64,000 nucleotides of DNA from Sipunculus nudus (taxonomy: Eukaryota; Annelida; Sipuncula; Golfingiida; Sipunculidae): the NCBI GenBank assembly GCA_026874595.1, contig CM049320.1, positions 17,682,988-17,746,987 on the forward strand, given 5' to 3'. The notes under the pieces are model-generated. The model had not been told where the DNA came from and searched no databases. It worked only from the letters and a program-made list of their open reading frames with translations. This document shows, piece by piece, positions 18,065-61,375 of this stretch (positions within the stretch are counted from its first letter, which is position 1; every line of letters starts with the position of its first letter). The position numbers and the translations under genes were made by a program.

Positions 18065-18413
18065 TTAACCAATTAAGTGACTAACCTGAGTTCATTTTTC
18101 TGCAAACAGTGTACAATTTAATTTGAATGAGTTCACAAGGCATAAAAAAGAATTAATTTGCAGTTATGTGGTGGTCTTGTCATTATTGTCAAATACATAT
18201 ATTGTAATGGCTCACAAATGAGCTTTATATGTCCCTGGGCCCAAGTTAAGTTCTTTTAATTTGTTTATACCATATTTGAGATAAGTCCGATAAATGATAC
18301 TTCTGCATTTTTAAATTATGGTTTTAACAGTTTGAATTTTCCTAGTTGTGTTTTGCTTATGGTCATACTTGTCCATAAATATTCACCGGTCTTCTCGTTT
18401 CTGTATTTCACAG
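18065..18413 (+). other. Probable intron upstream of the coding exon
   Basis: AT-rich sequence ends in a pyrimidine-rich stretch (TCTTCTCGTTTCTGTATTTC) and CAG at 18411-18413, a good splice acceptor. The open frame nominally extends upstream to an ATG at 18332, but composition changes abruptly at 18414, so I treat 18332-18413 as intron. No upstream exon was recognised. Confidence 0.5.
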
Positions 18414-36100: not shown

Positions 36101-37420
36101 AAAATACTGACTTCATCAGAATTACTCACTTGACAAGTTTTAACAATTACACTGTAAATACAAAATCTCACACCACATGATGTCAGTGATGAAGATAATG
36201 CTTTAAATCTGAGACGTCATGGGTCACTTATTTTAGGAATTATTTTAACTGTACATATGCTTTAAATAAATTATTAGCCTAGCTGTCAGGATTCAGAGAA
36301 AATACTGACTTCATCAGAATTACTCACTTGACAAGTTTTAACAATTACACTGTAAATACAAAATCTCACACCACGTGATGTCAGTGATGAAGATAATGCT
36401 TTAAATCTGAGACATCATGGGTCACTCGTTTTAGGAATTATTTTAATATTTTATCAGCTTATCAGGATTCAGAGAAAATACTGACTTAATCAGAATAACC
36501 CACTTGACAAGTTTTAACAATTACACTGAAAATACACAATCTCACACCACATGATGTCAGTGATGAAGATAATGCTTTAAATCTGAGACTTCATGGGTCA
36601 CTCATTTTAGGAATTATTTTAACTGTACATATGCTTTAAATAAATTATTAGCCTAGCTATCAGGATTCAGAGAAAATACTGACTTCCTCAGAATTTCTCA
36701 CCTGATGTTTTTTAACAATTACACTGTAAATACACAATCTCACACCACATGATGTCAGTGATGAAGATAATGCTTTAAATCTGAGACATCATGGGTCACT
36801 CGTTTTAGGAATTATTTTAATATTTTATCAGCTTATCAGGACTCAGAGAAAATACTGACTTCCTCAGAATTTCTCACCTGATGTTTTTTAACAATTACAC
36901 TAAATACAAAATCTCACACCACATGATGTCAGTGATGAAGATAATGCTTTTAATCTGAGACGTCATGGGTCACTCATTTTAGGAATTATTTTAACTGTAT
37001 ATATGCTTTTAATAAATTATTAGCACAGCCATCAGGATTCAGAGAAAATACTGACTTCATCAGAATTTCACACTTGACAAATTTTAACAATTACACTGTA
37101 AATACAAAATCTCACACCACATGATGTCAGTGATGAAGATAATGCTTTTAATCTGAGACGTCATGGGTCACTCATTTTAGGAATTATTTTAACTGTATAT
37201 ATGCTTTTAATAAATTATTAGCACAGCTATCAGGATTCAGAGAAAATACTGACTTCATCAGAATTTCACACTTGACAAATTTTAACAATTACACTGTAAA
37301 TACAAAATCTCACACCACATGATGTCAGTGATGAAGATAATGCTTTTAATCTGAGACGTCATGGGTCACTCATTTTTAGAATTATTTTAACTGTACATAT
37401 ACATTTAATATTTTATTAGC
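33130..37420 (+). repeat. Satellite of 176/196-bp units
   Basis: About 23 units. Short units (about 176 bp) have TTAATATTTTATCAGCTTATCAGG. Long units (about 196-198 bp) have TTAACTGTACATATGC and ATTATTAGCCTAGC instead. All carry ACTGACTTCATCAGAATTAC, TTTTAACAATTACACTGTAA and CACACCACATGATGTCAGTG. Inside each unit CATGATGTC and GACATCATG form a 9-bp inverted pair about 35 bp apart; some units have GACGTCATG instead. A 1226-bp block is repeated (see findings). No coding content. Confidence 0.9.
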
Positions 37421-37539
37421 CTATTAGGATTCCAAAGAATTTCTGACTTTATCATCATTTCTCACCTAACAGTTTTAACAATAACACTGTATATACAAAA
37501 TCTCCATATGATGTCAGTGATTAAGATAATGCTTTAAAT

Positions 37540-37985
37540 CATTTGTATTGTCCCTGGGCACTTCCTTGGAACGGGGGACATAGACTTGGGTTTGTCTGTC
37601 TGTTCCTCTTGTCTGACCCTCTTGTCTCACTGTCTGTTTTGTCTGTTGGTCCGCCAGGCTTTCATTTCCATGGGATAATGTTTCAAAATATTATCTGGTT
37701 TCATTCAGATTTCGGTCAGTGATTGCTCTAATGCTTAACTTGTTTTGGATGGTTTTGGAGTGTCTGTCTCACAAGATAATAATACAATTTGTTTCATTTT
37801 AATATGATAAATCAGCACATTAAGTTTAACAAATCACCAACATGAGTTGTTAGCAGTTGACTTAAAATTACTTTTTTTAAGTAACTGCCCAGTGCTGCCA
37901 TCTGCTGAGTGTGGTTAAAATTATTTGCACTTATTCACCACTTGAAGGTGCAAACAGAGGACATTTATTCCTTGAATTTTCTTGT
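37540..37985 (+). mobile_element. Short element inside the satellite edge
   Basis: The satellite breaks at GCTTTAAATC (about 37540) and resumes at ATGAATTATTTTAACTG (about 37987). The insert starts with a TGTCCC..GGGACA hairpin (37549-37580), then GTCTGTCTGTTCCTC and a GTCTGTTGGTCCG run, the architecture of the other short elements with a new 5' hairpin. The 3' end is not clear. Confidence 0.5.
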
Positions 37986-39775: not shown

Positions 39776-40325
39776 ACTTGCATGCAGATGGCTTTTTTCA
39801 TTGCTCAGGGACTTGCATGCAGATGGCTTTTTCCATCGCCCAGGTAAATGAGTAACAAAACTTAATTTCATGCAAACAGATGGTTTTCTCCACTGCTCAG
39901 GCACTTGCATGCAGATGGCTTTTTCCATCGCTCAGGTACTTGCATACAGATGGTTTTCTCCAATGCTCAGGCACTTGCATGCAGATGGCTTTTTCCATCA
40001 CTGAGGAACTTGCATGCAGATTTTTTTTTTCTTTGCTCAGGAACTTGCATGCAGATGGATTTTTTCCATCATTCAGGACATTCATGCAGATGGCTTTTTC
40101 CATCACTCAGGGACTTGCATGCAAATGGCTTTTTTCATTACTGAGGAACTTGCATGCAGATGGCTTTCTCCATCGCTCAAGGACTTTCATGCAGAAAGCT
40201 TTTTCCATCGCTCAGGGACTTGCATGCAGATAGCTTTTTCCACCACTGAGGAAATTGCCTGCAGATGATTTTTCTTTGCACAGGAACTTGCATGCAGATG
40301 GCTTTTTCCACCATTTAGAAACTTG
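39776..40325 (+). repeat. 35-bp minisatellite
   Basis: About 15 units of 35 bp with core ACTTGCATGCAGATGGCTTT, then TTCCATCGCTCAGG. Because 35 is not a multiple of three, the frame rotates, so the open frames on both strands are not coding. One unit is interrupted near 39843 by GGTAAATGAGTAACAAAACT, which also occurs alone at about 40669. Confidence 0.85.
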
Positions 40326-41665
40326 CATGGGTCATTGTATGTGAAAAGGTATTGGTCTCACTTGGTATTTATTTATTTTTTGTGGATTTTTTAATCTTTT
40401 ATCATAATTTCATATGCAAAGCAATATCTTAATGTTCCTAATATCCATTTCAAATTTATCGATAATGACTATCTTATGGTTTACCTTCAAGTTAATTGAT
40501 AAGGTGTAGGTGCAATTTTGGTTTATTTGTGAGTTTTTGCCCTGAATTCTGCATTAGTCACCTCCCAAGTTGTAAATCCCATCATAAAGCAAAGGACACA
40601 TTTCTCGTGTATGCGGGCAGGATATCAGGTCCTACAGAAATTTCCTAGTTACCAGTAAAAGCGCAATTGGTAAATGAGTAACAAAACTTTTATTTCATGC
40701 TGCTACGTATATCAGGGCCATTAACTTCTTTACAGAATCAGAGAACTATGATTCAGTGACATAACTCCCCGCCAGTTGTAATTACCAGTCTGTAAGTCTT
40801 AGGTTTGTCAACAAGGGAAAGTAACAAAGCATATCCACTGAGCCATGCAATCTATATTATAATATAAAGTATTTAAAAAATAAGATTGTTTTAATGACTT
40901 CTGGGTTCTTTGAGAGTACTGGTAATATATCTCGTCTCCCCTCCCAGTGTTTAGTCTTTCCTCAGTCATCATCATGTCATTTCTTGTGAATTTAATGCAA
41001 TAATTTTTGAAAGACCCAAAGTATTTTCTTGAAATTAACATTTAACGTTTCTACCAGTTCCTTGGTTGAGTTAAACAAACCAGTGATCTTGACCTTCATC
41101 ATCATAGTCAAATGGGCCTAAATTTTTTTATGAATGCCTATAACTTTTGAAGTATCGCATAATTATTTTATCATATTTAAAACACAAATTTTTTCAACTA
41201 AGTTTTTTAATGAGTTCAAAACCTGGTGACCTTGATCTGAATCTTTAAGGTCAAATCCGCTCAGATAGAAATTATTTGTTTACCCTCGCGTTAAAACCAC
41301 TGACATTAAAAATTTAAATTTGACTCTTGAAAAGTTTCTACCAAAAACTGGTGACCTTAATCTTCCAGGTGAAATCAGTCAGAATAGAAATTATTTATGA
41401 ACATTTGACTCTTGAAATAGTCAGTATTTTTACCTCAAATTTGGGGAAAGGCGGTCAATAGGGAGGGGAGACTTAAATGTTTTTGCATCCTCCATCTAGT
41501 TTGCATTAATATCCTTCTAGACAAGAGCTTACTTTTCTGGTAAGGTCAAACCACATAAACCTGCAATTCTATCTGCTGCATGTAAAGGTTGTTAATTATT
41601 CATGTGAAATGGCAAGCTTAGGTAATTTCCATTAAACAGTCTGTGTGCCAAATATTACAAAATTA
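40326..41665. other. Unassigned sequence with old element fragments
   Basis: 41070-41450 contains GTGACCTTGATC..AAGGTCAAATC and AACTTTTGAAGTAT motifs like the units at 14.4 kb, so it is a decayed copy of that group. The rest shows nothing definable. Confidence 0.45.
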
Positions 41666-41837: not shown

Positions 41838-41852
41838 AATTTTTCAACAACA

Positions 41853-42390
41853 TGAATATACATTGTCATTGTAACTGATGTACATGAATGTCCATCGTCA
41901 TTGTACCTGATGTAAATGAAAATCCATTGTCATTGTACCTGATGTACATGAATACCCATTGTCATTGTACCTGATGTACATGAATATCCATCATCATTGT
42001 ACCTGATGTACATGAATATCCATCATCATTGTGACTGATGTACATGAATACTCATTGTCATTGTACCTGATGTACATGAATATTCATTGTCATTGTACCT
42101 GATGTACATGAATATCCATAGTCATTGTACCTGATGTACATGAATATCCATTGTCATTGTACCTGATGTACATGAATATCCATTACATGTCATTGTACCT
42201 GATGTACATGAATATCCATTGTCATTTTACCTGATGTACATGAATATCCATTGTCATTGTACCTGATGTACATGAATATCGATCGTCATTGTACCTGATG
42301 TATATGAATATCCATTGTCATTGTACCTGATGTACATGAATATCCATTGTTATTGTACCTGATGTATATGAATATCCATTGGCATTGTGC
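41853..42390 (+). repeat. 32-bp minisatellite
   Basis: About 17 units of 32 bp with core TTGTACCTGATGTACATGAA and TATCCATTGTCA. Units are close to identical apart from single substitutions; one has an ACATG insertion near 42184. It starts directly after the MITE at 41666-41837. Confidence 0.9.
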
Positions 42391-42555
42391 TTGATGTGAT
42401 GTATTGAGATATGTCATAGAACTATTGAGTTGTAATGTGTTATTAAAAATTTTCAAGTTTGTGCATCATGGGAAGCATCACTAAATCATTTTTAAAAACC
42501 TTGTAAATTTTAATTGGCTTACGACTCTGATTAAACTCATCTTGTATATATAATT

Positions 42556-43424
42556 GTATCCCAGACAAAGTCAGGGGATACTATGTTTTCATGACGGTCC
42601 CACCGCCACCGCCGCCGCATATAAATCTTGTTGGTGCGATAACTCAAACAATGTTTCATTGATCTTTATCAAACTTGGTATATGTATAGATATGGGTGAG
42701 AGGACGACGCCTTTTGACCTTTACTAGGAGTGTCCTTGACCTTGAATAGGTCCAATTTAAGGGAAAATCACACAAATTCTTAAATATCTCAAGAAATCTT
42801 GCATGGATTGATCCCAAAATCAAGTTGATCAAAAATCATGGATAGGGTTGTCATGATCCAGAAACTGGTGGCACCACCTATTAATCTTTACTTGTTTTAG
42901 TGCTTTTTAATACCTACAAAATTGCCACTTGACAGTACTGTGAGCATATTATAAGTCAAAAACTAATGGACAGATTTCTTTTATATTATGCATATACATA
43001 GATATGGATTATGGAATGATTTTTATTTAATTTGGGGTCATGACCTTTCCTATGAGAGGGGCCTTGACCTTGAATAGTCCCATATATGGTGAAATTCACA
43101 CAATCTTTAATATCACAGTAAGGCATACATGAAATGATCCAAAAATCAAATTGACTGAAGATCTTGAATAGCTTTGTCTTTTGCAGAAGACAGGTGTGGC
43201 CACCTTGTGTTGTTTTCTTGCTAAAAAGATGTTAACGCAATAACTTTGTAAGAATTTGAGGTACAGTCACCAAACCCACAGGTTCGTTGCATCTTATCAA
43301 CGGCTAGGTCAAGTTCGAACATGGATGACATTGATGCATTTTTTCAAGGTCACAGCAGTGATTATGCTAAAATGATATTAGGGCAATAACTCAAAAAGAA
43401 TTGGTGGTACAGTCACCAATCCTA
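42556..43424 (+). mobile_element. GTATCCC-hairpin element, left part, split
   Basis: The 5' hairpin GTATCCC / GGGGATAC (42556-42581) is followed by a CCGCCACCGCCGCCGC tract, GATAACTCAAACAATG and GTCCTTGACCTTGAAT. From 43230 come AATAACTTTGTAAGAATTTG and AGGTACAGTCACCAA units. It stops at 43422 (GGTACAGTCACCAATCC) and continues at 55655, after the 12.2-kb insertion. Confidence 0.6.
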
Positions 43425-43436
43425 TCCCAGATAGCA

Positions 43437-44395
43437 TGCAAACAAGGGACCCATGTGGGACCAATATGTACAAACCCATGGGTCCCATATGGGCTAACCC
43501 AGTGGGCACCCGTGACTTTTTGCTCCCGGGTCCAATGTTGGCTAGGACGTGGGGCCAACATGGGTATACATGTGGGCCCATGGAGGGTACCAGGTGGGGC
43601 CTGTATATGGGGCCCACGAATGGCTACCAATAGGCTAAACAGGGGCAGACACAAGGGTCCTTGGAGGGTTTGTCACTACATGCAAACAAGGGACCCTTGA
43701 GGTACATGTCCATGGGCCCCATATGGGCTAACCCCGTGGGCACCCGTGACTTTTTGCTCCCGGGTCCAATGTTGGCTAGGACGTGGGGCCAACATGGGTA
43801 CACATGTGGGCCCATGGAGGGTATCAGACGGGGTCTGTATATGGGGCCCACGAATGGCTACCAATGGGCTAAACAGGGGCAGACACATGGGTCCTTGGAG
43901 GGTTTGTCACTACATGCAAACAAGGGACCCTTGTGGTACATGTCCATGGGCCCCATATGGGCTAACCCCGTGGGCACCCGTGACTTTTTGCTCCCGGGTC
44001 CAATGTTGGCTAGGACGTGGGGCCAACATGGGTACACATGTGGGCCCATGGAGGGTACCAGGCGGGGTCTGTATATGGGGCCCACGAATGGCTACCAATG
44101 GGCTAAACAGGGGAAAACACATGGGTCCTTGGAGGGTTTGTCACTACATGCAAACAAGGGACCCTTGTGGTACATGTCCATGGGCCCCATATGGGCTAAC
44201 CCCGTGGGCACCCGTGACTTTTTGCTCCCGGGTCCAATGTTGGCTAGGACGTTGGGCCAACATGTGTACACATGTGGGCCCATGGAGGGTAACAGGCGGG
44301 GTCTGTATATGGGGCCCAAGAATTGCTACCAATGGGCTAAACAGGAGCAGACACAAGGGTCCTTGGAGTGTTTATCACTGCATGCAAGCGGAGTT
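43437..44395 (+). repeat. 234-bp GC-rich tandem array
   Basis: About four units of 234 bp (CTACATGCAAACAAGGGACC at about 43675, 43909 and 44143). Each is rich in GGGCCCCATATGGGC, CCGTGGGCACCCGTGAC and GGCCAACATGGG. 234 is a multiple of three, so frames stay open in several frames on both strands (up to 251 codons). Because all frames look alike and the translation is a pure 78-residue repeat, I read it as non-coding. It forms the left terminal region of the 12.2-kb insertion. Confidence 0.85.
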
Positions 44396-44639
44396 GATAT
44401 AAATAAAGTTGGATAAAATCAATAAAGGATTATTTAAATTGATTTTTTAAAAATCATATATAAGTGAATGTTTACCAGCCCTAGATAATAAAATATGTGT
44501 TTTGGACAATTTTTCTTTGTTCTTGAAAGCATGAGCATGATTTATTTGTCCAGAATAATATGTACAAACTTGCCACTTTATCTTACATGAATGGTACAAC
44601 TGGTCATAAAAACTAACACAAGACATTCTCCATGGCAAG

Positions 44640-44790
44640 GATGGTGGCGTGCGGTAATCTGTTAGGGGGGAGGAAACAAGGGGACCTAGACAGGCCACTA
44701 CAACTCGCTCTCATAGCCACTTGGGATTGAACTCGGGTCACCAGGTGCCAGCAGGGAACGCTTACCGTTTTACCACTTTTCTGTTTTCAC
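44640..44790 (-). mobile_element. tRNA-derived SINE-like fragment
   Basis: On the minus strand AGTGGTAAAACGGTAAGCG (A-box-like, about 44777-44758) is followed about 35 bp later by GAGTTCAATCCC (B-box-like, about 44733-44722), a tRNA-type internal promoter. No cloverleaf acceptor stem is visible, so it is not a tRNA gene. It lies inside the 12.2-kb insertion. Confidence 0.5.
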
Positions 44791-44799
44791 TGTGTAATA

Positions 44800-45203
44800 C
44801 AGTGGTGTTCCGATTAATCGATTGATGACTGGTCTTTTTTTCCAAAATTAATTAATCGATTGCATTTTGCATAATCGGGTAATATGATTATGCATGCATA
44901 TGCAAAGAATCCTGTCAGAGATATGCGAACACAAAATAACAATGTATAGCGAACAGCATCACAACAGAACCTTGCGGCAGCCAACAATCGTCCGTCGGCA
45001 AGTTCGACTTGGCTACGGGTGAATGATTTGTTTCATTATGAATAGTGATGTACAAGTCAGACTATTTACTAGGGTCAATATTTATGGTACTAGTATACAG
45101 TAGATTACACGGTAATATAGAAAGTACATAAAATAATTCGATTAAATTATCGATCATCAGCCGTTTTTATTTTTTAATCATCGATTATGATTTAAAACCA
45201 TTA
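44800..45203 (+). mobile_element. hAT-like MITE
   Basis: Starts CAGTGGTGTTCCGATTAATC with several ATCGATT motifs. The far side has AATTATCGATCATCAGCCG and AATCATCGATTATGATTT in the opposite sense. CAGTGGTGTTCCGATTAATCG-type ends are familiar from hAT non-autonomous elements. The right end is decayed and no 8-bp target duplication was confirmed. Confidence 0.45.
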
Positions 45204-45495
45204 CCTACAACTTATATATATACACACACACACATTTGAAAAGCTCAGAGGAAATAGCCCTGCTCACTGGTGATAATTACATATTAACTATATATTTGTC
45301 ATAATAATAATGTGTACTTTTATGGACTATATCAAAGGTGGAGGTGTCTCTCATGATAAAATAATTCTAGAAGTATCCTTATTTCAGCTATGTGACAGTG
45401 ATATGTGCATAAAATAATCATGGAACCTGTCACTTATAAAACAAGGAATAATGTGATACACATTTTATTTATTAGCTGAAATAAAATGCTCCCAA

Positions 45496-45935
45496 AACAA
45501 GGCATACAGGCCTAATGCGAGCCTGTACAAAGTTTGGGGAGCATGAATGGAGGTTTATTTTTTAAATTTAATATTGTTCCTCTTATGTCCTGCATATCTA
45601 CCTTCGTCATTATGATTTCAGCAAAATGGACGTTTCAGACCTGCATTTTTCGGCCTAAGACATTATAAAACTAGGATGTATCAGTCAGGATATTTCGGAT
45701 ATGTTTTCTTTTCTTTTTCTGCCAGGGATGATTATTGGGACGGATGAACGCGCAATTTGGCAGCATGGTTTCGGACAAGAACATTTTTTAAATGTTTAGC
45801 CAAGAAATAAGAATATTTTAGATGACTAATTTTTTTGCAAAAAAAAATGGTGATGCTAGCTCCTGCCCTTTTTGAGAAAGCTATGACGCACGACAGACGA
45901 TGGCACACCATCGCATAAGCTCACAGATTTGCTAT
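45496..45935 (-). mobile_element. Compact family B element
   Basis: Read on the minus strand it starts CTGTGAGCTTATGCGATGG at about 45925 and ends GCATTAGGCCTGTATGCCTT at 45496. Its 3' 150 bp are the reverse complement of 13300-13452, including CATTCATGCTCCCCAAACTTTG. At about 440 bp it is the smallest copy in the window with both family ends. Confidence 0.65.
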
Positions 45936-46006
45936 AAATGCAAACCAAGTTTTTTTTCAAAGAGTTGAAAGATATAGTTCCACTAGTTCTAACCTGGGCA
46001 TTCTGC

Positions 46007-46048
46007 GTCTAGACGATGTGTCTAGACGTCTAGACGATGTGTCTAGAC
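46007..46048. repeat. Tandem pair of palindromic GTCTAGAC units
   Basis: A 21-bp unit GTCTAGACGATGTGTCTAGA(C) occurs twice in a row. It holds four GTCTAGAC palindromes in 42 bp, flanked by AACCTGGGC on the left and CCAGGTCAG about 10 bp to the right. Function unknown. Confidence 0.8.
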
Positions 46049-46334
46049 ACCAAACAGAGCCAGGTCAGTTGCCATGGTGATGTCTGGACCTAACCTGGTT
46101 GAACTGAGTGACCTCCTGACTTGGCATGTTGAAACTTGGCATGTCAAATCTGTTTTCAAACACTGAAAGCCTTTTCCAATTGGCTACACTGGCCAAAGCT
46201 GCATTTACCCAATCTATTCTTATAAAACTGACAGAACCCTACCATTGAATAATTCTTGTAAAGTTTAAACCAATCAGCTTAACAGTTTCATCATAAAAGT
46301 GTATAGGCTAGAAGAGTCTAAAATTACATTTTTG

Positions 46335-46851
46335 CTTGTAAAAAAGGTCAATGTTAGTGGCGCCACCAATACCTCAATTTAAGATATGACTTATGTGATA
46401 AAACATTTGCATAAAATTTGGTGATACTAGCTCCAGAAGTTACTGAGATCATTTTCATTTAGTGTGCGTTTTTGGACAGATGACTAAGTTTAACCTCCTG
46501 TTACTCGGCCAAAAATCTCCGAACTGGAACCATTCGAACAAACTTGAGAGAGATTGTTCCAGGGATAATTTCTATTAAATATTGGACAATTTGCTAGGAC
46601 AGTTTCGGAGAAGAAGATTTTTAAATCTTTTTTAGCGTTTTCCCTATTAAATCTAAGAAAATACAGTTAGAAAAAAAAATTAAACAAAATCCGATAGAGT
46701 TTTTCAGGTGACTGATTATTTGCAAAAAAAAAATGATGCTAGCTCCTGCCATTTTTGAGATAGCTATGGTTAACGTACAGACGACGCACGACACAAGACG
46801 CACTTACGCACTACGGCGCATCATCGCATAAGCTCGCAGGTTGGCTAAAAA
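46335..46851 (-). mobile_element. Family B 5' fragment
   Basis: On the minus strand it starts AACCTGCGAGCTTATGCGATG and follows positions 500-950 closely (GGCAGGAGCTAGCATCA, GGTTCCAGTTCGGAGATTTT, GGTATTGGTGGCGCCAC). It breaks off near 46335 before the 3' end. Confidence 0.65.
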
Positions 46852-46996
46852 TTGAAAATTTTATTTTCAAATGAACATAAGCTAAATCTGATAAGTATAC
46901 ATGTATATTGTACTCACTGTGTAAAACATTGATATTTTGGCCTCTTATCGTTAATAATGCAATCATGAAAAAAAATTTATGTGCTTTAGATAAGTT

Positions 46997-46998
<2 letters not shown>

Positions 46999-47037
<39 letters not shown>

Positions 47038-47056
47038 GGGAGGGGGGGGGGGGGGT
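46999..47056. repeat. GA microsatellite and poly-G tract
   Basis: Pure (GA)n at about 46999-47032, then GGGGAGGGGGGGGGGGGGG to 47056. Confidence 0.9.
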
Positions 47057-47059
47057 ATT

Positions 47060-48149
47060 AAAGAATGCTTATAGGAAAAGAGTTGATTAAACAAAGAAGA
47101 TGAACAGATGGCACTGGTCCCTTTATGTCACATACTGCTGAGGCAAGAACATAATATGTTTCAATTATATCCTTTTTTTTATTACACTGATTTTTTTTTC
47201 TCATTTAATAAATCCCTATATATTTGCTATTAAACTAATGGGCCAGTCCACAGGTGCAGGTGCTCAATGGCAAGAGAAAGGGGGTGTTACTGGTGAGAGG
47301 TGAAATTTAAGGCAACAGTACTTACGGGAGGAAATGTTTATTCATAATTGTAACAAATTTAAAAAAAGACAGACAGGTGGAAAAACAAAGCCAATCACTT
47401 TATTTTATCTTATGCTTAGGCAGGAAAATAATGAAAAAAATATTTGCATAAGATCCTCATTATTTTCATCACATCAATCTTTTTTTTTCAAGATAAAATA
47501 TTATACATTTGCAATATATCATATATATATCTGAATATATAAGTTGATTTACAATTCTTAATAGCATCTTCATTTATCCCAAATTTTGTCCAAAAACAAC
47601 ACATTATACATTCACATGTATTATTTTTTTACCACTAATAATATATATATTTTATAAATTTGCAAAACAATAAATATCTGAAAATTTAACTTGATTCAGA
47701 ATTTACAATTTTAAATTGCACCTTCATTAATCCATAATTTGGCTCATATATTATCATATTACGTATCCTGTTGGGTTTAATTTTATTTTTAATTTGTCAA
47801 AATTATTGAAAAGGGAATTAATTTATTTAGAGTATTTCATTATGTCTAGAAAACCAAGTAAGCTTTACATTTCAATGTAATTTCTGTGTCAATAAAGGAA
47901 GAATTCAAACGATAGGTTTCACATTACATTTGGTGCCGGGGGGGGGGGGGGGGGGGTTGATATGAAAATTAATGTACACTTGTTACAGCAGGGGATGTCC
48001 CAAGTGACCCATTATGAATCAGGTAAGCAGAGAGAGATGCATTGAATGCCCTCCAGTGACCAAAGTGGGCTGCATGACAATGCAATTGACACAATAAGAG
48101 CCTCTAAAAATATTTTAATAACTAGCTTAATTTTGCCATTACACACTTA
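47060..48149. other. Unassigned AT-rich sequence, G19 tract
   Basis: AT-rich, with a run of 19 G at 47938-47956. No gene is visible. Confidence 0.5.
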
Positions 48150-48960
48150 AGTCTTTTTTGCAAACCCTTCGTACGGCTGCGTGGCAGAACAACGTTAACC
48201 AAGTTGGAACGATCATGTTAGTTAACTTGATTGAGCGCGGTTTGCTTCTGGATTGGCGTACAAAACAGTGTCCGATCTAGAGCACGGGAGGTATAGGGCT
48301 ATTTCCGATCGTGTATATTTTAACGCAGCTCCCCCCCCCCCCCCCATATTTATTACGTATTATGCAAATTAAATTTATTTGATAATAGCCAGTTATTCTA
48401 CTTGAAATGATGGACCGCTTACTTTTGAAAACATTCAAAATAATATCAGCGAGGTTTGTAATATTCTCCACGAGGTGTCCGAAAATGTCCGGCTTTTATA
48501 TGGTCCTGCCGAGATCAGTTTCGGAATCATCCTCCACGGAGGGTCACAGACTATAGCGACATTCTTGACATCGCGTGGATAAATCCTCTACAGGCAATCC
48601 TAAGGCCGAAAGCGGAAAAAGCCGACCTATTTAAATCTCTTTGTTAAAATGGCTGCGAACATGTGACTATGAGGTTTTGATTTTGAAAATTCAGAATGAA
48701 GTAAGCTAATTTGGATATCCGATCGCCATATACCTATGCTTGCAGCATCGCATTTGTGAGCACTAGAATTGTTGCACATGCACGGACTATTTCCCGCTAT
48801 GAAACCACATGAATGAAACTACACTCGCATGCGCGTAGTGTACTATGAATCTCAGATTGGCTTTCTTTCTAGGGCTGCTGGGCGATCGCAGCTAATCGCA
48901 TGGAAGCCCGGTAGGTCGTCTTATGCAAATAAACTCTTTAATCAAATATACACACAATGA
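48150..48960. promoter_or_regulatory. CpG-rich segment, possible promoter
   Basis: CpG dinucleotides become frequent here (CTTCGTACGGCTGCGTGG, CATCGCGTGGAT, GGCCGAAAGCGG, GGGCGATCGCAG) in otherwise CpG-poor DNA. AAAATGGCTGCGAACATG near 48649 resembles a YY1-type start-site motif, but the frame closes after five codons. On the minus strand TTTTCAAAA|GTAAGC (about 48410) looks like a splice donor after short frames. A C15 tract lies at 48331-48345. A weak 5'-exon or promoter call only. Confidence 0.3.
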
Positions 48961-49049
48961 AAATGCTAAAAATTGCGATAGGCACCTGTGTTATTTGTGG
49001 CCAATGCCGCGTTATACCGCTATTCTAAGGGCTCCGAATCGTTTGATGC

Positions 49050-49074
49050 AAAAAAAAAAAAAAAAAAAAAAAAA
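49050..49074 (+). repeat. A25 tract
   Basis: Pure poly-A of 25 bases directly after a CpG-containing stretch. It could be the tail of a retroposed sequence, but no body was recognised. Confidence 0.85.
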
Positions 49075-50139
49075 CATTCTAAAATGATGTTCATCAGGAA
49101 ATACCTACGTTTGATATATTTGTTTATATTAGTTTGTCATTTTTCCTTGCATTTGTTTACATTTCTAAGGGGTAAACTTTTAATTAATTTGATATATATG
49201 ATTAAATTCCCGACTGGTATAGTTTCACCATATTTTACATATTGTGTTTTTTTAAATGTGTTTCTGAGGTTTTTTTTTCGATGATTGACAACAGATAGAT
49301 CCTACCTTAAAGATGTTTTATGTGATATTTTAAAGAAAAAGACTGTTTGCTTATTTTTCTTGATTTCTGACTGGGTGGCTCTGATGAACCCTGATATTGC
49401 TAACATGTGCGTTTGTTATTCGAATTGTATATTACATGGCTATTTTTATTTGCCTGAACTTTCCTTTACTTGTTGTTAGCTTTTTATTGCCACCGACCAT
49501 ATAACATACTTTAAATTAATAGTTTAATTTGCAACAAGTGTCCTATACCGGTTATTATAAACTTTTAAGTTGTTTAAGTGAGAAAAATAGATTGATTGGT
49601 TTTACAAAATTGTTTTAATGGACTGATTAGTTTTACAAAAATGTTTAAATTGATAAAAGTTTAAAAAGAAAAAATCTTGATTTTTTAAAAGTTTTTCACT
49701 GGCCCATCAAGAAAATAATGAGGATATCCTGTAGATACTGAGAATACTTTATTTGCACTACTCATTGTAAAAGGGAACATATAGTTCCTATCTATTCATG
49801 TCATCATTTGCAAAATTTATATGGAAAAATGGCGGTTTTTATATCTTTAATGTTTGAATTATATTTATTTTTTTATTTTTTCCCTTCTCCTTCCCATCAC
49901 TGTCCATTTCTTTGTTCGAGATACTTTTTATTAAATATGTAAGGCCTTATAATTAAGAAAGGGCTCACAACTTCAAGAAATTACACAATACTGACTAATT
50001 TCTGGTATGTACATGGCAAATATATAGAGAAATATCTATATCAAATATGATCAATATCAGATCAGAAATTTTGATGATCTTGAAAGTTAAGAACTGGCTT
50101 TAAATGGAAAATTTAATTTTTACCTAAATATTTAAAAGG
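49075..50139. other. Unassigned AT-rich sequence
   Basis: Frames here are AT-driven with no domain. I see no element. Confidence 0.45.
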
Positions 50140-50325
50140 TACGAAGTTGAGCGACCCAATTTTCGGTATGGTAGGGTTTTTTTGGGAGAACATCTTACCA
50201 TATGCCGCATTTCGGATTCATATGTCCAACGGTTACAAAAAATACCCTACTAACGGACGGACGCCCGGACGACGGACAATGGACATGGCTATAGCTCAGA
50301 TGACTTTTAGTCAGCTGAGCTCAAC
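50140..50325 (-). mobile_element. Family A 5' fragment, minus strand
   Basis: On the minus strand it begins AGCTCAGCTGACT-AAA-AGTCATCTGAGCT (50321-50293), then CATTGTCCGTCGTCCGG and CGTCCGTCCGTTAG, and ends around 50140. Confidence 0.6.
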
Positions 50326-50403
50326 ATATAATTATCCCTAGACTGAATGGGAAATTTTCAAAGCAAATAAATCACTCTGAACATAATATTAAGGACTTCA
50401 TAC

Positions 50404-50409
50404 TTTATT
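50404..50409 (-). terminator. AATAAA candidate on the minus strand
   Basis: CACCAATAAAGTATG on the minus strand could serve the candidate transcript starting near 51.8 kb. It is one of several chance-prone AATAAA hexamers in AT-rich DNA. Confidence 0.25.
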
Positions 50410-50859
50410 GGTGGTTCACCAGAATGTTAATTACAAACATTATTTAGAATTACAAAATAACATGGATAATATACATCTGAAACTTGAAAGTACTATATCT
50501 ACCAAGGGATTATTCTACGCTTTTCTATGGTCCTTTATATATGTGCCACATCCCATCTGAAATTTTTTTTTTCTTTTAACAAGAAATTCACCATTCATCA
50601 ATTTAGGCTCCACTTTGAACTTTGAACCTTTTTAAACTTAACAGCTCATAAATAATCCTTCTTTCGCAAAAAAGGGATTCTTGAAAGATAGAATAATTCC
50701 TGGTATCAATAAATCTTCCATAAAAAGGTTCGAAATATATGTCCGTAAAATCTGAGTTTCTGGTGTGACTTTCACCTATTCCAACTTGTGCTACTATCCT
50801 TTGAATACATAAAATGAGTGCATTAATGGAGTAAATTTTATATTGAACTCATCAATTGT

Positions 50860-50989
50860 TCAGAACATAGGATCCAGATCCATTGTTATTTTGCTTGCCT
50901 GGACATTCCCTGCAGTCCAAAATGACAATATGTATGGGCTTGAATAGGAAGTTGGGTTGAGTTCTCTCCATGTGTGTTTTCCCATATAT
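50860..50989 (-). other. Candidate downstream exon, minus strand
   Basis: A good acceptor (GTTTTCTGCTTTAG) ends at 50990. All three minus frames then stay open for over 30 codons; one contains MGKHTWRELNPTSY and ends in TGA at 50862-50860. Joining the donor at 51691 directly here would make TG|A, a stop, so these two cannot be adjacent coding exons as read. It may be a missed-exon gene, a non-coding transcript, or chance. Confidence 0.25.
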
Positions 50990-51690
50990 CTAAAGCAGAA
51001 AACTTTGTTTTAATATTTTTAAATACTTAACTTACAATAGGAACTTAAAAAAAACTAACATTAAAAAAAAATATTATCAACTTTATTATTCATTAAAAAA
51101 ATCCATTTTAATACTATTAAACGATGTGTACTAAATTTTCCCTTTTGTCTGTGGATCTAAAAAAACCCACAAACCATAGCATGCATACTATACAAAGACA
51201 CATGATATCAGGTGTCAGATTTACTAGAATTCTCTGCATGAACTGCTCTAAACCAAACTATTTTCAAAATATATTAATAATATAAAATGATTTAATTAGC
51301 ATATTGATTTTTTTATTATGGGGAACTTAATATGAAACTTCCTATTACTGTAGGTAAAAAAAAAGAAAATAAACTGAAACCCTAATGGATAATTTTTTTT
51401 TTTAATATGGTCATGATATATAGTGTAAACAAGGCAACATGACAGCCTATATGTACATCTGCAAAAAAAAATATTTATATATACTTCTATATACTTACAG
51501 TTACAGTGACATTGTTATTTGTATAAAAAAAATATTAAATTTTAAAATTTACATGACAATCTTTAACAATAACACTTACACTAAGTAATAGATAAACCGT
51601 GTGAAAATGTAACATTATTGATTCATTTAAAGAGCATGACGTGATTATTCATGGTCATATGGCATAGTTTGTCAGTAATCCATGGCTCAC

Positions 51691-51785
51691 CATAGCAATT
51701 TATTTGCGTCTTGCAGGCCCTCCGACTTCGGACACCGAACATCCCGGAATACAAACCAGCGTCCTTGAGATTTTGACATAGCCAT
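51691..51785 (-). CDS. Candidate first coding exon, minus strand
   Basis: Starts at AAAATGG on the minus strand (ATG at 51785) with a second in-frame ATG at 51779. The frame begins MAMSKSQGRWFVFRDV and runs 31 codons plus two bases to CTATG|GTGAGC, a good donor. If not spliced it would stop one codon later at TGA (51689). Base composition is more GC- and CpG-rich than its surroundings, and the segment directly upstream looks like a promoter. I do not recognise the protein and found no matching downstream exon in phase, so this is a candidate only. A frame-shifted alternative on the same strand lacks an upstream ATG. Confidence 0.35.
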
Positions 51786-52095
51786 TTTGGCTGACGACAA
51801 TTCCGCAACTCGCTGCGCTTAACCGTTTATCAAACACTGTAGAAAAAGCGTACTCCAGTAATATTGTATCCTCTGTGAAAATGAAGTCTATAGAACGTAG
51901 AAACTATAAAATTATGAACTTCTTAACGAAACTTAGTGTTCCACATGCCGAAATATCCCCGCCTGACAGTCCCGCCCAGCAGACGACATGACTATAGTGC
52001 TCTCCTTCTTATCACTACGCGGGCCCACACGCAGCGTGACGTCAAAGAGACCGCGGATTACGCTACACGAAATAGTTCTTTCTTTGTAAGCAAAT
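51786..52095 (-). promoter_or_regulatory. CpG-rich promoter with CRE and GC box
   Basis: A 300-bp CpG-rich island lies between very AT-rich sequences. It contains a perfect cAMP-response element TGACGTCA at 52037-52044, a GC box CCCGCCC at 51971-51977, and GGGCCCACACGCAGCG. Its low-coordinate edge meets the candidate first exon at 51785 on the minus strand. On the + strand a donor-like TTT|GTAAGC near 52086 would also allow a divergent transcript. This is the best promoter-like region in the window. Confidence 0.45.
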
Positions 52096-52619
52096 ATGTC
52101 GTCAGACTGTGTGCACGTTATATTCATCAAGTTTAAATTGCTTGAAATTGCACAGTATAAACAAACGGTCAAGATATAAAACTGACATTTTGAAGATTAG
52201 TTAAGGGTTTCCTGAAAATATGAGATATATTAAAACCTGATATTCAATTTAATTTGTTCTTATCAAGTTAAATAAATGTAAGATTCATTTAAAATAAAAA
52301 TATAAATAAACTAAAAATTAAATTATTTTATTAATATTTTATTATATTTATTTATTTGATTATTTATTATTAATATGATATTGTTTAATACTATGAATAT
52401 ATTATTTTCATTATAACTATCATTAGGCCTCTTATTGCAATATTTAGTCATCAAAATTAAAATTGATCATAAAATCAGAAATAATATATTAATGACATTA
52501 TATTAAGATATCATAATGTAATATAAATAATTATTGTAATTCAAATGATAATTATAATGAAAAAATAATATTAATAGCATTAAAAAATAGAATATTTGAA
52601 TACATATTCAATAATATAA
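52096..52619. other. Extremely AT-rich spacer
   Basis: Almost only A and T from about 52230 to 52680 with many ATTAATATT motifs. No element or gene. Confidence 0.6.
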
Positions 52620-55480
52620 ATAAGAAATAAACTATTTTATTAATATTTTATAATATTTATTTATCTGATTATATTCATAATATTCATCATGTTACCATAG
52701 TTTCCTATATGTTACTATGGGGTCTTACTCCTAGCTGTGTTTTCCTAAAGGCATTGAAAATTAACTATAATACCTCAAATATATTACTAATTAATTTCCT
52801 ATATTTTACTGTAACCCCTATAGGTTACTATAGATGTATATAGTAAACTATAGGATATTTTCGCTGGGTAAATACGGACTTTATATGGTTATTATCCAGA
52901 AACGTGATGTTTATATGGGTATTACATCGACAATCCCGGAGGGACCCTTGTGACTTAACCCACCTTTCTCCCTCGACCTAATCTTATTTCAGAAGTAAAT
53001 CCTGTGATGAGTTTAAATAGAAAAATACATGAAAATACGTTACGTAGAACAATTTCGCAGTTTGATAATAACTTTTCAAAGATTTAATAATATATTATTG
53101 TTGTTTATTTTATGTAACCAAACGAACATGCCACGTGGGGCCCGCCATGGGCCCACATGGGGAACAATGCAGGACAAACTGGACAATGTCCTCATGGGCC
53201 CTACGTGGGCACTACCTACATGCACTAGTACTGTTCTATTTTATGTTATATAAATGAAAGTTATTTTAATATAAACTATAGCTTTACTTTATGCTTACAT
53301 AAAATGATATTAAAGGAAACTACAAACTAATATATGCTTTGAAAAATTGACAAAGATACTCCACGTTACTAAAGTTCCTTATATGTGACTATAGACTCCT
53401 GCAGTTAAGAATTTTCTTTAGGTATTGAAAATTGACTATAATATTCATCGTGTTACCATAGTTTCCTATATGTTACTATGGGGTCCTACTGCTCGGTGTG
53501 ATTTTCCTGGAGGCATTGAAAATTGACTATAATACCCCAAATATTACTACTTCGTTTCCTATATTTTTCTGTAACCCCTATAGGTTACTATACATGTAAA
53601 TAGTAAACTATAGGATATTTTGGCTGGGTAAATACGGACTTTATATGTTTATTATCCAGAAACGTGATGTTTATACTGGTATAACATAGGCTAGCCTGGA
53701 GGGACCCTTGTGAATTAGCCCGCGTGGCTCCCTCGACCTAATCTCAGTTGAGAAGTAAATCTTGTGATGAGTTTAAATAGATAAAAAAACATGAAGATAC
53801 GTCCCGTAGAACAATTTCGCAGTTAATTAATTACTTCTCAAAGATTTAATAATATATCATTGTTTTAATTTATTTTTTGGTAACAAATACGAACATGCCA
53901 CATGGGACCCGCCATGGGCCCACATGTGGAATAATGCAGTGCAATCTGGACAATGCCCTCATGGGCCCCATGTGGGCACTACCTGTGTCCGCCCATATTC
54001 AATAATATGAATTAGAAATAAATTATTTATTAATATTTTATAGCAAAAAATTACTTATCTGATTATTTTCTAATAATATTCTAATATATATTATATTAAA
54101 TGATATTAATGGAAACTACAAACTAATATATGCTTTGAAAATTGACAATAAATACTTCAAGTGACAAAAGTTTCCTTTTATGTGACTACAGACTCCTGCA
54201 GTTAATTTAGATTTTTCTATAGATATTGAAAATTGACTATAATACCCATCATGTTACCATAGTTTCCTGTATGTTACTATGGGGTTCTATTGCTAGGTGT
54301 GATTTTCCTAGAGGTATTGAAAATTGACTATAATACCCCAAATATTACTAATTAGCTTCCTATATTTTTATATAACCCCTGTAGGTTACTATACATGTAA
54401 ACAGTAAAATAAAGGAAATTTTGGCTAGGTAAATACGGATTTGATATGGATATTATCCAGAAAAGTGATGTTTATACTGGTATTTCATGGGCTAGCCTGG
54501 CGGGACCCTTGTGACTTAACCCACTTGGCTCCCTCGACCTAATTTCAGTTCAGAAGTAAATCTTGTGATGAGTTTAAATAGACAAAAACATGAAAATACG
54601 TCACGGAAAACAATTTCGCAGTTAATTGATTACTTCTCAAAGATTTAATAATATATCATTGTTTTTTATTTTTTGTAACAAATACGAACATGCCGCATGG
54701 GACCCGCCATGGGCCCACAATTAGAACAATGCAGGACATTCTGGACAATGCCTTCATGGCCCCATGTGGGCACTACCTGTGTCCCCCCATATTCAATAAT
54801 ATGTATTGGAAATAAATTATTTTATTGATATTTTATAACAAAAAAAATTTATTATCTGATTATTTTTTAGTAATATTCTAAATTATGTTACATAAAATGA
54901 TATTAATGAAAACTACAAACTAATATATGCTTTGAAAATTGACAAAAAATACTCCACATTACTAAACTTTCCTTTTGTGACTACAGACTCCTACATTTAA
55001 TTAAGATTTTCCTATAGGTATTGAAAATTGACCATAATATTCATCATGTTACCATAGTTTCCCATATGTTACTATGGGGTCCTATTTCTAGCTGTGATTT
55101 TCCTAGAGGCATTGAAAATTGACTATAATGCCCCAAATACTACTAATTAGTTTCCTATATTTTTATATAAACCCTACAGGTTACTATACATGTAAATAGT
55201 AAACTACAGGATTATTTTGCCGGGTAAATACAGACATTATATTGTTATTTTCCAGAAACGTGATGTTTATACTGGTATTACATGGGCTAGCCTGGCAGGA
55301 CCCTTGTGACTTAACCACATGGCTCCTACGACCTAATCTCAGTTCAGAAGTAAATCATATGATGAGTTTAAATAGACAAAAACATGAAAATACGTCACGT
55401 AGAACAATTTCGCAGTTAATTAATTACATCTCAAAGATTTAATAATATATCATTGTTTTTTATTTTATGTTACAAATACG
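52620..55480 (+). repeat. Tandem units of 760-800 bp
   Basis: GTTACCATAGTTTCC recurs at about 52691, 53452, 54253 and 55048 (spacings 761, 801, 795). Each unit has TACTATGGGGTC, repeated ATTGAAAATTGACTATAAT, TGGCTGGGTAAATACGGAC, CCTCGACCTAATCT and a GC-rich core CCATGGGCCCACATG..GGGCACTACCTG. The GC-rich core resembles the right terminus of the 12.2-kb insertion. Units differ by a few percent to 10 percent by eye. Confidence 0.85.
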
Positions 55481-55652
55481 AACATGCCACATGGGACCCG
55501 CCATGGGCCCACATGTGGAACAATGTAGGACAATCTGGACAATGCCCTCATGGGCCCCATGTGGGCACTACCTGTGTCCGCCCATGCCCATGTCTGCCCA
55601 TGTGAAGCCCATATATACCCACGTGGGCCCCTCGTATATGTGCTATCAGGGA

Positions 55653-55990
55653 TAGTTTAGATGCATCTTATCAAGGGCTAGGCCAATTTCGAATATGGAT
55701 GACCTTGATGCATTTTTACAAGGTCACACAGGCGATAACGCTGAAATGATGTTAACTTTTAATATGTCACTGAGGATTCAAATGCATGGATCGGTCCAAA
55801 AATTAAATTGACATAAGATCTTTGATAGCATTGTTTTCTGCAGAAGACAGATGTCACCACCTTATGTTGTTTTCTTGCTATAATGATGTTTAAATGGAAT
55901 AACTTTGTAAGAATTTGAGGTACAGTCATCAAACACACAAGTTTGATGCATCTTATCAACAGCTAGGTCAAATTTGAACATGGATGACCA
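55653..55990 (+). mobile_element. GTATCCC-hairpin element, right part
   Basis: Continuation of the element interrupted at 43424: GATGCATCTTATCAAGGGC, GGATGACCTTGATGCATTTT, CAAGGTCACACAGG, then another AATAACTTTGTAAGAATTTG / GGTACAGTCATCAAAC unit at about 55905-55990. Confidence 0.6.
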
Positions 55991-55994
55991 TTGA

Positions 55995-58330
55995 GTTGTT
56001 AAGTGGTTAATGTAACATATATAGTTTTGTTAATAAAAATGTTATCTGTTCCAGAAAGTTTGCTCTGATTAGTGTTTTCGCTGTAATTTAGAATTTGTAA
56101 TATATAAAAATATAAAAAAAGGATGTAGAATATTTTTTTACAAAGATACTTTATTCAAATTCACTCCAAATTATGTTGTTTAAATTGGTGGTTAGCAAAA
56201 TTCTGTGCAAACAAAAATTCAAACAGCTAAATGTAATTTCTCAAAGAGCAGTGTGTTAGAAAATCTTTCTAAAAATGTTTACACATATTAGTGCCAAGAA
56301 CATAAATAATAAGAGGTCATGCTACAATAATTATGATAATGGAAAACGCATTCAGAAATTTGAATTTAATGAGCTAGTTTGCTGTCTTTCAGGAATTTTT
56401 TCCCCTTTATCTTCACCTATGTGTACACATTTTGTCATCGTTGCATATGTTTCTATTAGTTTTGTTCATTTGATTTATAATTTATCAACTGTTTTAAAAA
56501 AAAGTGAAAAAAATGAAAAAAAAATAAAAATTGTTAAGAAAAGGTCAGATTAAAAAAAATGTTAAAAAAGTTTCCTTTTTTTTCAAGTTTTAGTTTTGAT
56601 CTTGTTACTTATTGGATTTTTCCCCTTTAACTTCACATATGTGTATTCATTTTATTATACATGTTCCTTTAGACAATTTAAATATTTTTGTATTACATTG
56701 TATTGTTAGGTGGTAAGCTGTTTTGTCATATGAAAAGGTTATGTTCCAGAAAGTTAGCTAGGATTTTACTAAAATAATTTTTTTTAGAAATGTGGTATGT
56801 TTGTGTTTTTATAGTTATTATATAGAAACTGTAATATATTGAAAAAAAGGATGCAGATTATTTTTTTAAGTTACCTTATTCAAATGGTGTTTAAATTGAT
56901 GGATAGCAAAAATCAGTGTTAACAAAGTAATTCAAACAGTGTAATTTCTCAAAGAGCAGTGTGTTTGAAAATCTCTCCAAAAATGTTAACACATATTAGT
57001 GTCCAAGACATTAATAGTAAGAGGTTAAGCTACACTAATTATGATTATGAAAAAAAAATTTAGAAATTTGAATTTAATGAACTAGTTTGTTGTGTTTGCA
57101 TGTATTGTTTTTTTTTCTTAATCTTCAATTTTGTGTACTCATTTTGAAATCTTTGCACATGTATCTATTAGTTTTGTTCAATTGTTGTACAATTTAATTA
57201 TCAACTGTTAAAAAGAGGTTAACAAAAATGTTAAAAATGAAAATTGTAAAGAAATTGCAATTAAAAAAAATCATAAAAATGTTTTTCTTTTCACAAGTGT
57301 AAGTTTTGATCTTGTAACTTATTGGATTGTTGTTTCCTTTATCTTCACATATTGGTTCTCATTTAATTATTTGTGTACCTTTAGACAATTTAGACATTTT
57401 GTTGTATTACATTGTATTGTTAAGTGGTAAGTGTAGCTGATATAGTTTTGACATACTAAAAGGTTATCTGTTCAAATATGCAAAGTATGTTATTTAAATT
57501 AATGGATAGCAACATTTAGTGTAAACAAAAGAAATTCCAACAATATAATGAACCGGTTTGCTGTCTTTGCATATTTTGATTTTTGTACTCATTTGTACTC
57601 TATATGTACTCATTTTGTAATCTTTCTACATGTATCTACTAGTAGGTTTGATCATATGTTGTTTAATTTATCAACTGTTAAAAAAGGTGTACAAAAAGTT
57701 TTAAAAAGTTAACAAAATTTAAAATAAATTGTTAAGAAAGGTTAACAAAATACATTGTTAAAAAGTTTTTCTTTTAACATGTTAGTTTTGATCTTGTTTC
57801 TTATCGGATTGTTTTTTTCCCTTTATTTTCAAATATATATGTACTTATTTAATTACTTGTGTTATTTAGAAATTTTGTTGATGTACATTGTATTGTTAGA
57901 TGGGATGTGTATCTGATAATTTTTTTTTTCATTTTAAAAAGGTTATCTGTTCAAGAAAGTTATAGCTCTGATTATATAAAAGAACTCTCTCTTTTAGAAA
58001 TTTTGTATACTTGTGTTTTTGCTGTTATAATATAGAAGTTGTTATATATTGATATAAAAAGCTTGTTAATTAATTTTTACCAAAGTTACTTTATTCAAAT
58101 TCTCTGCAAAGTAAGTTGTTTAAATTATTGGATAGCAAAAATCAGTGAAAACCAAGTAAATCAAACAATGGAATTTCTCAATGAGCAATTTGTTGGAAAA
58201 CACTCTTAAAAATTGTTAACACATATTAGTGCCCTGGATAGTAATCATAAGAGGTCAAGGTTCAATAACTATCATTTTGAAAAACATGCACATTCAAGAA
58301 TTTGAATTTAATGAACTAGTTAGTCTTTGC
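55995..58330 (+). repeat. Old tandem array of about 700 bp per unit
   Basis: Four units are marked by GGTTATCTGTTC..GAAAGTT at about 56045, 56738, 57465 (with a deletion) and 57943. Shared blocks include TTTCTCAAAGAGCAGTGTGT, AACACATATTAGTGCC, TTTGAATTTAATGAACTAG and ATTACATTGTATTGTTAG. Many substitutions and A-run length changes indicate age. Small frames are not conserved between units. Confidence 0.8.
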
Positions 58331-60244: not shown

Positions 60245-61375
60245 CACATCACCTAATTGAACATACATGTCTATGACCTTAATATTACACATACATTACA
60301 TGTCTGTGGCCATGAAATCACACAGACATTACATATCTATTACCAAAACATTACACAGACATTACATATCCAAGACCATGACATCACACAGACATTACAT
60401 ATCTATGACCATAAAACAGACGTTACATATCTATGACCATGACATCACACAGACATTTCATGTCTATGACCATAAAATTACATATTACATATCAATGACC
60501 ATGAAATCACACAGACATTACATATCTTTGACGATAACATTACACAGACAAATTGTCTATGACCATAACATTACACAGACATTACATATTTTTACCATAT
60601 GGAATCACACAGACATTACATATCTATGACCATGGCATCATAAAAACATTACATCACTATGACCATGGCATCACATAGACAGTACAGACTTATCATATCT
60701 GTGACCATGACATCACACAGACTAGACATATCTATGACCATAAAATTACATATTACATATCTATGACCATGAAATCACACAGACATTACATATCTATGAC
60801 TATGGCATCACACAGACAAATTGTCTATGACCATAACATTACACAAACATTACATATCTTTTACCATATGGTATCACACAGACATCACATATATATGACC
60901 ATGGCATCACATAGACATTACATAACTATGACCATGACATCACATAGACAGTACAGACTTATCATATCTGTGACCATGACATCACACAGACTAGATATAT
61001 CTATGACCATGACATCACACAGACATTCCATATCTATGACCATGACATCACACCGACATTACATATCTATGACCATAAAATGGCACAGACATTAAATACA
61101 GATCTATGACCATAACATCACACAGACATTACATAGGGATATATGACCATAACACTCTACAGACATTACATATCTAAGGTCATGCCTTCACACCAACATT
61201 ACATATCTATGACCGTAAAGGTACACAGACATTACATATATATGACCATGACATAACACATATATTTATTAGCATAATGTCACACAGGTATTACATATTT
61301 ATGCCCATTATATCACACAGAAATTACATATATATGACCAGACCATTGCATATTTATGATCATAACACTACACAG
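60245..61375 (+). repeat. 33-bp minisatellite
   Basis: About 34 units with consensus ATGACCATGACATCACACAG and ACATTACATATCT. The 33-bp period is eleven codons, so frames of 110-120 codons arise (HRHYISMTMTS repeats). Because neighbouring units differ by one- or two-base indels that break the frame, I do not call it coding. An eight-unit higher-order repeat of about 269 bp is visible (CAGACAAATTGTCTATG at 60545 and 60813). Confidence 0.9.

Follow-up and report, generated by a model that had tools for sequence, protein, structure and literature searches.

Positions 17,682,988-17,746,987 of contig C15 of Sipunculus nudus (64 kb; hereafter the window, in whose coordinates positions are given unless a contig is named) contain a copy of a host repeat that is split by about 12.2 kb of other DNA with similar, inverted ends. 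An earlier note on this DNA had proposed that a single unit moved in here, and the question raised by the locus is whether the inserted DNA is indeed one mobile element and, if so, of what kind and by what means it moved. We scanned the assembly (1.43 Gb in 153 contigs) for its ends and compared the copy in the window with 10 further full copies. The results make it likely that the inserted DNA is a young, giant, non-autonomous transposon similar to the TRC/CACTA elements, present in dozens of copies and moved in trans.

The limits of the element were set by the comparison of the full copies, and its first letters are CCCAGATAGCA at 43426 and its last letters TGCTATCAGGG at 55651 (Table 1). 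Both ends, the interrupted host repeat, and the tandem array at either end were all found where the earlier note had located them, whereas each of its two limits, 43425 and 55652, lay one base too far out. The inverted match between the ends is real as well, with a count of 26 rather than the 27 of 35 positions given previously.

The 27 outermost bases of the left end were found at 56 genome sites with two or fewer mismatches (42 exact), on every contig from C1 to C17, and those of the right end at 43 sites (29 exact), while reversed control patterns gave no match in the same genome-wide scan. At these sites the ends start with CCC in 54 of 56 and 40 of 43 cases, respectively. A right end was located downstream of 36 left ends, on the same strand and within 25 kb, with a spacing of 7,458-17,971 bp (median, 12,742). 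Between the partners of a pair there was never another end site, and no left and right end lay within 5 kb of each other in any orientation (sites at two or fewer mismatches). When the ends were placed at random in 1000 shuffles, with an assumed length for contig C6, 0.04 pairs arose on average and never more than one per shuffle. Twenty of the 56 left ends and 7 of the 43 right ends were unpaired. Of the unpaired left ends, at least three (those at C4:68.47, C16:0.57, and C3:85.13 Mb) have a right partner that falls below the threshold of the pattern.

All 10 of the other full copies fetched were colinear with the element in the window, with internal insertions and deletions. The core segment 48,080-48,900 was matched at 93-100% identity by the best 40 of 714 candidates, and in 37 of these 40 places a listed left end lay no more than 14 kb upstream. 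Because the DNA similarity searches scored the best 40 of 67 candidates for the left end, of 207 for the right end, and of 714 for the core, the copy numbers derived from them are lower bounds. The alternative that two separate short elements lie by chance 12 kb apart in one repeat has nothing in its favor beyond the imperfect match between the ends; it is refuted by the 36 co-oriented pairs against the 0.04 expected, by the lack of intervening ends and of pairs within 5 kb, by the colinearity of the copies, and by the matching duplications described below, and we give it practically no credence. Ends that never occur together at other loci, or that have nearer partners of their own, which the earlier note had named as the sign of two elements, were thus not encountered, and its proposal that a single unit moved in as a whole is borne out. 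At C15:55346930-55347252, a left end joins the core directly, matching about position 49,430 of the window, and its right partner was not found. This left end is a deletion derivative, and a shorter element may be present there; the direct junction indicates that deletions do arise in the family.

Identical 2 bp were found on both sides of the element in 28 of 29 left/right pairs (11/11 full copies and 17/18 further pairs), the exceptional pair having a right end without its last five bases. After this damaged pair and one duplicated locus (C4 near 0.14 and 0.86 Mb) were dropped, all 27 independent sites had matching 2 bp, comprising nine different dinucleotides (TA 8, AT 7, AA 3, GG 2, GT 2, TT 2, GA 1, CA 1, and AC 1), and the match extended to 3 bp across the flanks at none of the 27. 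The target is A+T-rich, and its sequence is not fixed. The fifth and sixth positions before the insertion site are mostly purine (21/27 and 24/27), and the mirror positions after it are mostly pyrimidine (20/27 and 20/27), which suggests a weak two-fold symmetry. The TA that the earlier note placed outside both ends does not stand: the duplication on either side of the element is 2 bp long and varies in sequence between copies, being AT here. The T before the element and the A after it, which had been taken as element with TA outside, are both part of this AT duplication.

The empty site was reconstructed from 60 bases of the left flank and 128 bases of the right flank with one AT removed. The joined flanks matched an intact repeat copy at approximately 43,220-43,354, which lies outside the flank used in the test, without gaps (113/135 identical; score, 160), and the score dropped to 152-154 and a gap appeared when 0, 1, or 3 bases were removed instead. 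A second repeat copy, near 55,918, also matched the joined flanks, with 4-6 gap positions. Its scores (92 with one AT removed, 94 with none removed, and 95 with one base removed) do not separate these lengths, and another alignment to it (94 vs. 96) was likewise undiscriminating on the length of the duplication. Insertion into a pre-existing repeat is therefore supported by both repeat copies, as the earlier note had held in stating that the outer flanks belong to one repeat and rejoin to match intact copies, and the exact 2-bp step is supported by one repeat copy together with the 28 of 29 pairs.

Spread of the family by segmental duplication, not transposition, is one further reading of the paired copies. 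One instance fits it: the copies at C4:139055-152470 and C4:856942-870351, about 0.72 Mb apart, have flanks that are identical over the 20 bp compared at either end and share a GG duplication, and represent either a segmental duplication or an uncollapsed haplotype of the assembly. In the family as a whole, flanks of 300 bp taken from the 11 full copies gave no match between copies at E ≤ 0.001, the 20-bp flanks of the other pairs differ by eye, and the matching 2-bp duplications and the match to an intact empty site also speak for transposition, so that spread by segmental duplication is highly improbable.

Table 1. Positions of the element, its parts, and the interrupted host repeat in the window.
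Feature	Position	Strand	Basis or remark
Left part of interrupted host repeat (part used in test)	43366..43423	+	Gapless match of joined flanks
Left copy of 2-bp target-site duplication (AT)	43424..43425	.	Adjoins left end; full-copy comparison and empty-site test
Whole element, 12,226 bp, CCC...GGG	43426..55651	+	Boundary common to all 11 full copies
Left terminal inverted repeat, ~35 bp, imperfect	43426..43460	+	26/35 positions match right end
Left subterminal array, unit 234 bp, ~3.9 units, with GGGCCC and CCCAYRTGGG boxes	43435..44387	+	TIR-like CATGCAAACAAGGGACCC repeated in each unit
Core, without recognizable gene	44390..52640	+	Flat conservation among 11 copies
Right subterminal array, unit ~795 bp, four units (first more diverged)	52645..55585	+	CCCAYRTGGG/GGGCCC box inverted relative to left array
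Right terminal inverted repeat	55617..55651	-	26/35 match with left end
Right copy of 2-bp target-site duplication (AT)	55652..55653	.	Adjoins right end; full-copy comparison and empty-site test
Right part of interrupted host repeat (part aligning)	55654..55728	+	Gapless match of joined flanks

Inside the ends, the element carries two unlike tandem arrays (Table 1). A sequence similar to the inner part of the terminal inverted repeat (TIR), CATGCAAACAAGGGACCC, recurs in each unit of the left array, and the units of the two arrays have in common a box of about 43 bp, which lies in opposite orientation in the two and is up to 81% complementary. All 10 CCCAYRTGGG boxes of the window are inside the element, in both arrays, as are 21 of the 26 GGGCCC sites. 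Such an arrangement, in which boxes recur at either end and face opposite ways, is that of the subterminal repeats of CACTA elements (PMC2613891). Part of the size range of the family is due to differences in the length of the right array, of which a 15.5-kb copy has approximately seven units; a 14.9-kb copy has about 2.9 kb of extra DNA in its core. A copy at C7:80845188 was considered as a coding relative and rejected, since it is a degraded member of the family (C7:80845158-80847500) whose first array unit contains about 670 bp of foreign DNA. This foreign DNA is bounded by short inverted CTACGCT sequences and, apparently, by an 8-bp overlap in the match to the array, and is probably another small transposon.

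The core gave no sign of a gene in the 11 copies. Its conservation is flat: across windows of 250 bp, the pairwise identity (aligned letters) stays within 96.7-99.1% and reveals no exon-like conserved islands. Outside the left array, stop-to-stop frames reach at most 131 aa. No Pfam match above the cut-off was obtained with 20 of the 39 core frames of ≥50 aa and two left-array frames of the copy in the window; the best matches below the cut-off (E = 0.026 for the core and 0.0029 for an array frame) were taken as chance. The longest open frame of the left array varies from 154 to 349 aa by copy, its length not being kept, and such long frames go with a unit of 234 bp, which is a multiple of three. 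Rfam at gathering scores detected nothing at 43,000-56,100, and no tRNA was detected in the window. The core stretch 50253-50321 was also seen at four loci around host transposase genes, with about 84-91% identity over 35-70 bases, and probably represents a dispersed host repeat that lies within the element.

The unit might instead be autonomous, with a transposase that escapes recognition because it has diverged too far or is broken into too many small exons. CACTA transposase genes can have many exons, according to the account in PMC2613891, and the Pfam scan took in about half of the longer core frames, as given above. Against this, frames as short as those outside the left array and conservation as flat as that of the core were found in all 11 copies, and tblastn with the frames of the host Transposase_21 loci against them gave a best E of 0.089, which is at chance level, whereas at E ≤ 1e-5 the same frames gave 115 matches outside the loci from which they were taken. 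We regard autonomy of the unit as very unlikely. A captured gene or hidden transposase was rejected on the Pfam negatives in the scanned frames. The earlier note was thus right that no transposase is visible, and its reading of the element as a giant non-autonomous transposon agrees with the paired ends, the colinear copies, and the lack of a recognizable gene; its other suggestion, captured cargo, found no counterpart in the interior in the form of a recognizable gene.

The element probably works like the TRC/CACTA group, as a putative non-autonomous member of it. The TRC elements of animals, which are related to CACTA, were described as having CCC termini, a Transposase_21 gene, and a tandem-repeat region, and SmTRC1 was reported to have 2-bp direct repeats in 7 of 14 copies (DeMarco et al., 2006; PMC1636069). 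The element studied here resembles the TRC elements of that description (SmTRC1 of Schistosoma mansoni and those of Tribolium and Aedes) in its CCC termini, 2-bp duplication, short TIR, and internal tandem repeats, and its right end matches the Tribolium terminus CCCTAGTAGCAC given there at 10 of 12 bases. Unlike it, those elements carry a Transposase_21 gene, in about 4.7 kb in SmTRC1, about 5.2 kb in Tribolium, and 9.2 kb in Aedes (PMC1636069), whereas the element here has no recognizable protein and its pairs span 7.5-18 kb. Among the features of TRC, the CCC termini, an unfixed 2-bp duplication, and repeats inside the ends are all present; no Transposase_21 gene was recognized in the 11 copies, which counts against autonomous membership and not against non-autonomous membership.

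Spongebob (EnSpm-4N1_HM) of Hydra offers a similar case, with CCCAGCCAACATTGAC termini (CCCAG start), a 2-bp target-site duplication, many copies, and reportedly no intact transposase; it differs in its 5.8-kb consensus and in the sequence of its TIR (PMC4298943). The plant CACTA elements Tgmt* (20.5 kb) and Spm/En are similar in their large size and in having subterminal motifs, GC-rich in part, that are repeated both directly and in inverted orientation, those of Spm/En being bound by TNPA, but differ in having CACTA termini and a 3-bp duplication, and Tgmt* is coding (all as described in PMC2613891).

The mechanism that we propose is as follows. A Transposase_21 (DDE) enzyme supplied by a different element would act in trans, recognize the CCC[A/T]GATAGCA termini and the many GGGCCC/CCCAYRTGGG boxes of both arrays, and excise the whole unit of about 7-18 kb. 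Reinsertion with a 2-bp stagger would then produce the 2-bp duplication. The Transposase_21 class of the mover and the function of the boxes as transposase binding sites are both inferred.

Seven Transposase_21 loci above the cut-off were found elsewhere in the host genome, with open frames that include 973, 897, and 858 aa. Two of the genes, at C8:57.458 Mb and C2:44.917 Mb, whose open frames measure 973 and 858 aa, appear near-identical by eye and look like a young coding family in the same genome. Several observations weigh against the TRC/CACTA assignment. The 9.4 kb of the C8 locus contain no CCC[A/T]GATAGCA end and no CCCAYRTGGG box, and have a different array of their own, of 63 bp, with CAACGTTGCTGCAAC motifs; the absence of the ends led us to reject this locus as the autonomous partner. 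A transposase-coding element with the same ends was not found at any of the seven loci (9.4 kb at this one and about 1.5 kb on either side at the other six). Furthermore, no remnant of a transposase is present in the 11 copies, so that decay of an autonomous element, the usual route, is not visible, and the putative superfamily attribution draws solely on the ends, the duplication, and the subterminal repeats.

Alternatively, the element could be a giant non-autonomous transposon from some other superfamily that makes 2-bp duplications, either ISL2EU/PHIS or a DDE group not yet described, and its TRC-like ends would then have arisen by convergence. Short duplications occur in several superfamilies, and no partner of the element here was found. 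Tc1/mariner and piggyBac were both rejected, since the TA duplicated by the former was found at 8 of 27 sites and the duplications here are 2 bp, with 0 of 27 reaching 3 bp, against the TTAA of the latter, which is also the duplication of Kolobok. piggyBac also shows CC[C/T]T starts but uses TTAA, as far as PMC2872659 describes it. ISL2EU, of the PHIS superfamily, is similar in its 2-bp duplication and its reported animal hosts; it differs, according to the description in PMC4482050, in an AT-only duplication in A|AT|T and in TIRs that mostly start with GG, and it was rejected because nine dinucleotides were found here, with AT at 7 of 27 sites. Taken together, another superfamily is unlikely, and we favor the TRC/CACTA-like assignment.

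The copies of this TRC/CACTA-like family are similar to one another. The core distance among the 11 copies averages 2.3% (range, 0.13-2.76%), figures that, like the identities given for the core above, ignore gaps; BLAST identity with gaps is approximately 92-97% for long pieces of the other copies and 99.7% for the closest. The 10 compared copies were picked from the best-scoring matches, so divergence may be underestimated. The core of the 11 copies has 398 singleton and 115 shared two-state sites, and the tree of the copies has mostly short inner branches and longer terminal branches, a shape compatible with a burst of copying from similar sources, after which the copies decayed independently. 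The copy in the window differs from that at C1:65.76 Mb by 0.13% in the core, while their duplications are AT and GG and their flanks are unrelated, which indicates recent movement.

Non-autonomous DNA transposons are usually thought to succeed by shrinking into miniature elements. Here, unlike that route, a unit of about 12 kb without a recognizable gene has multiplied on contigs C1 to C17, and the 36 paired copies alone amount to about 0.46 Mb of noncoding DNA (36 × the 12.7-kb median). The shortest of the 36 detected end pairs is longer than 7.4 kb, that is, the family was amplified as giant units. There are simple explanations: the copies may descend recently from one large source, or older, more diverged ends may escape detection. 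A more speculative idea, to which we give a small but real chance, is that the large interior, the long arrays, or both have to be present in cis, for instance to form a platform of many sites on which the transposase or its DNA-binding partner must load, and that short derivatives are immobile. The lack of any pair below 7.4 kb and the spread in giant form would follow from such a need. If this is true, selection would be keeping a non-autonomous DNA transposon large. The family offers a natural test of the cis requirements of a CACTA-type transposase.

Outside the element, the window contains other long tandem arrays at 27624-30062 (unit, 62/125 bp) and 33280-37540 (176-198/374 bp), and further arrays at 39877-40329 (35 bp), 41850-42397 (32 bp), and 60264-61340 (33 bp). 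An open frame of 501 aa at 18260-19765, in which a Gln-rich part that looks like a coiled coil is followed by Ser/Pro/Thr-rich repeats, is a possible host gene.

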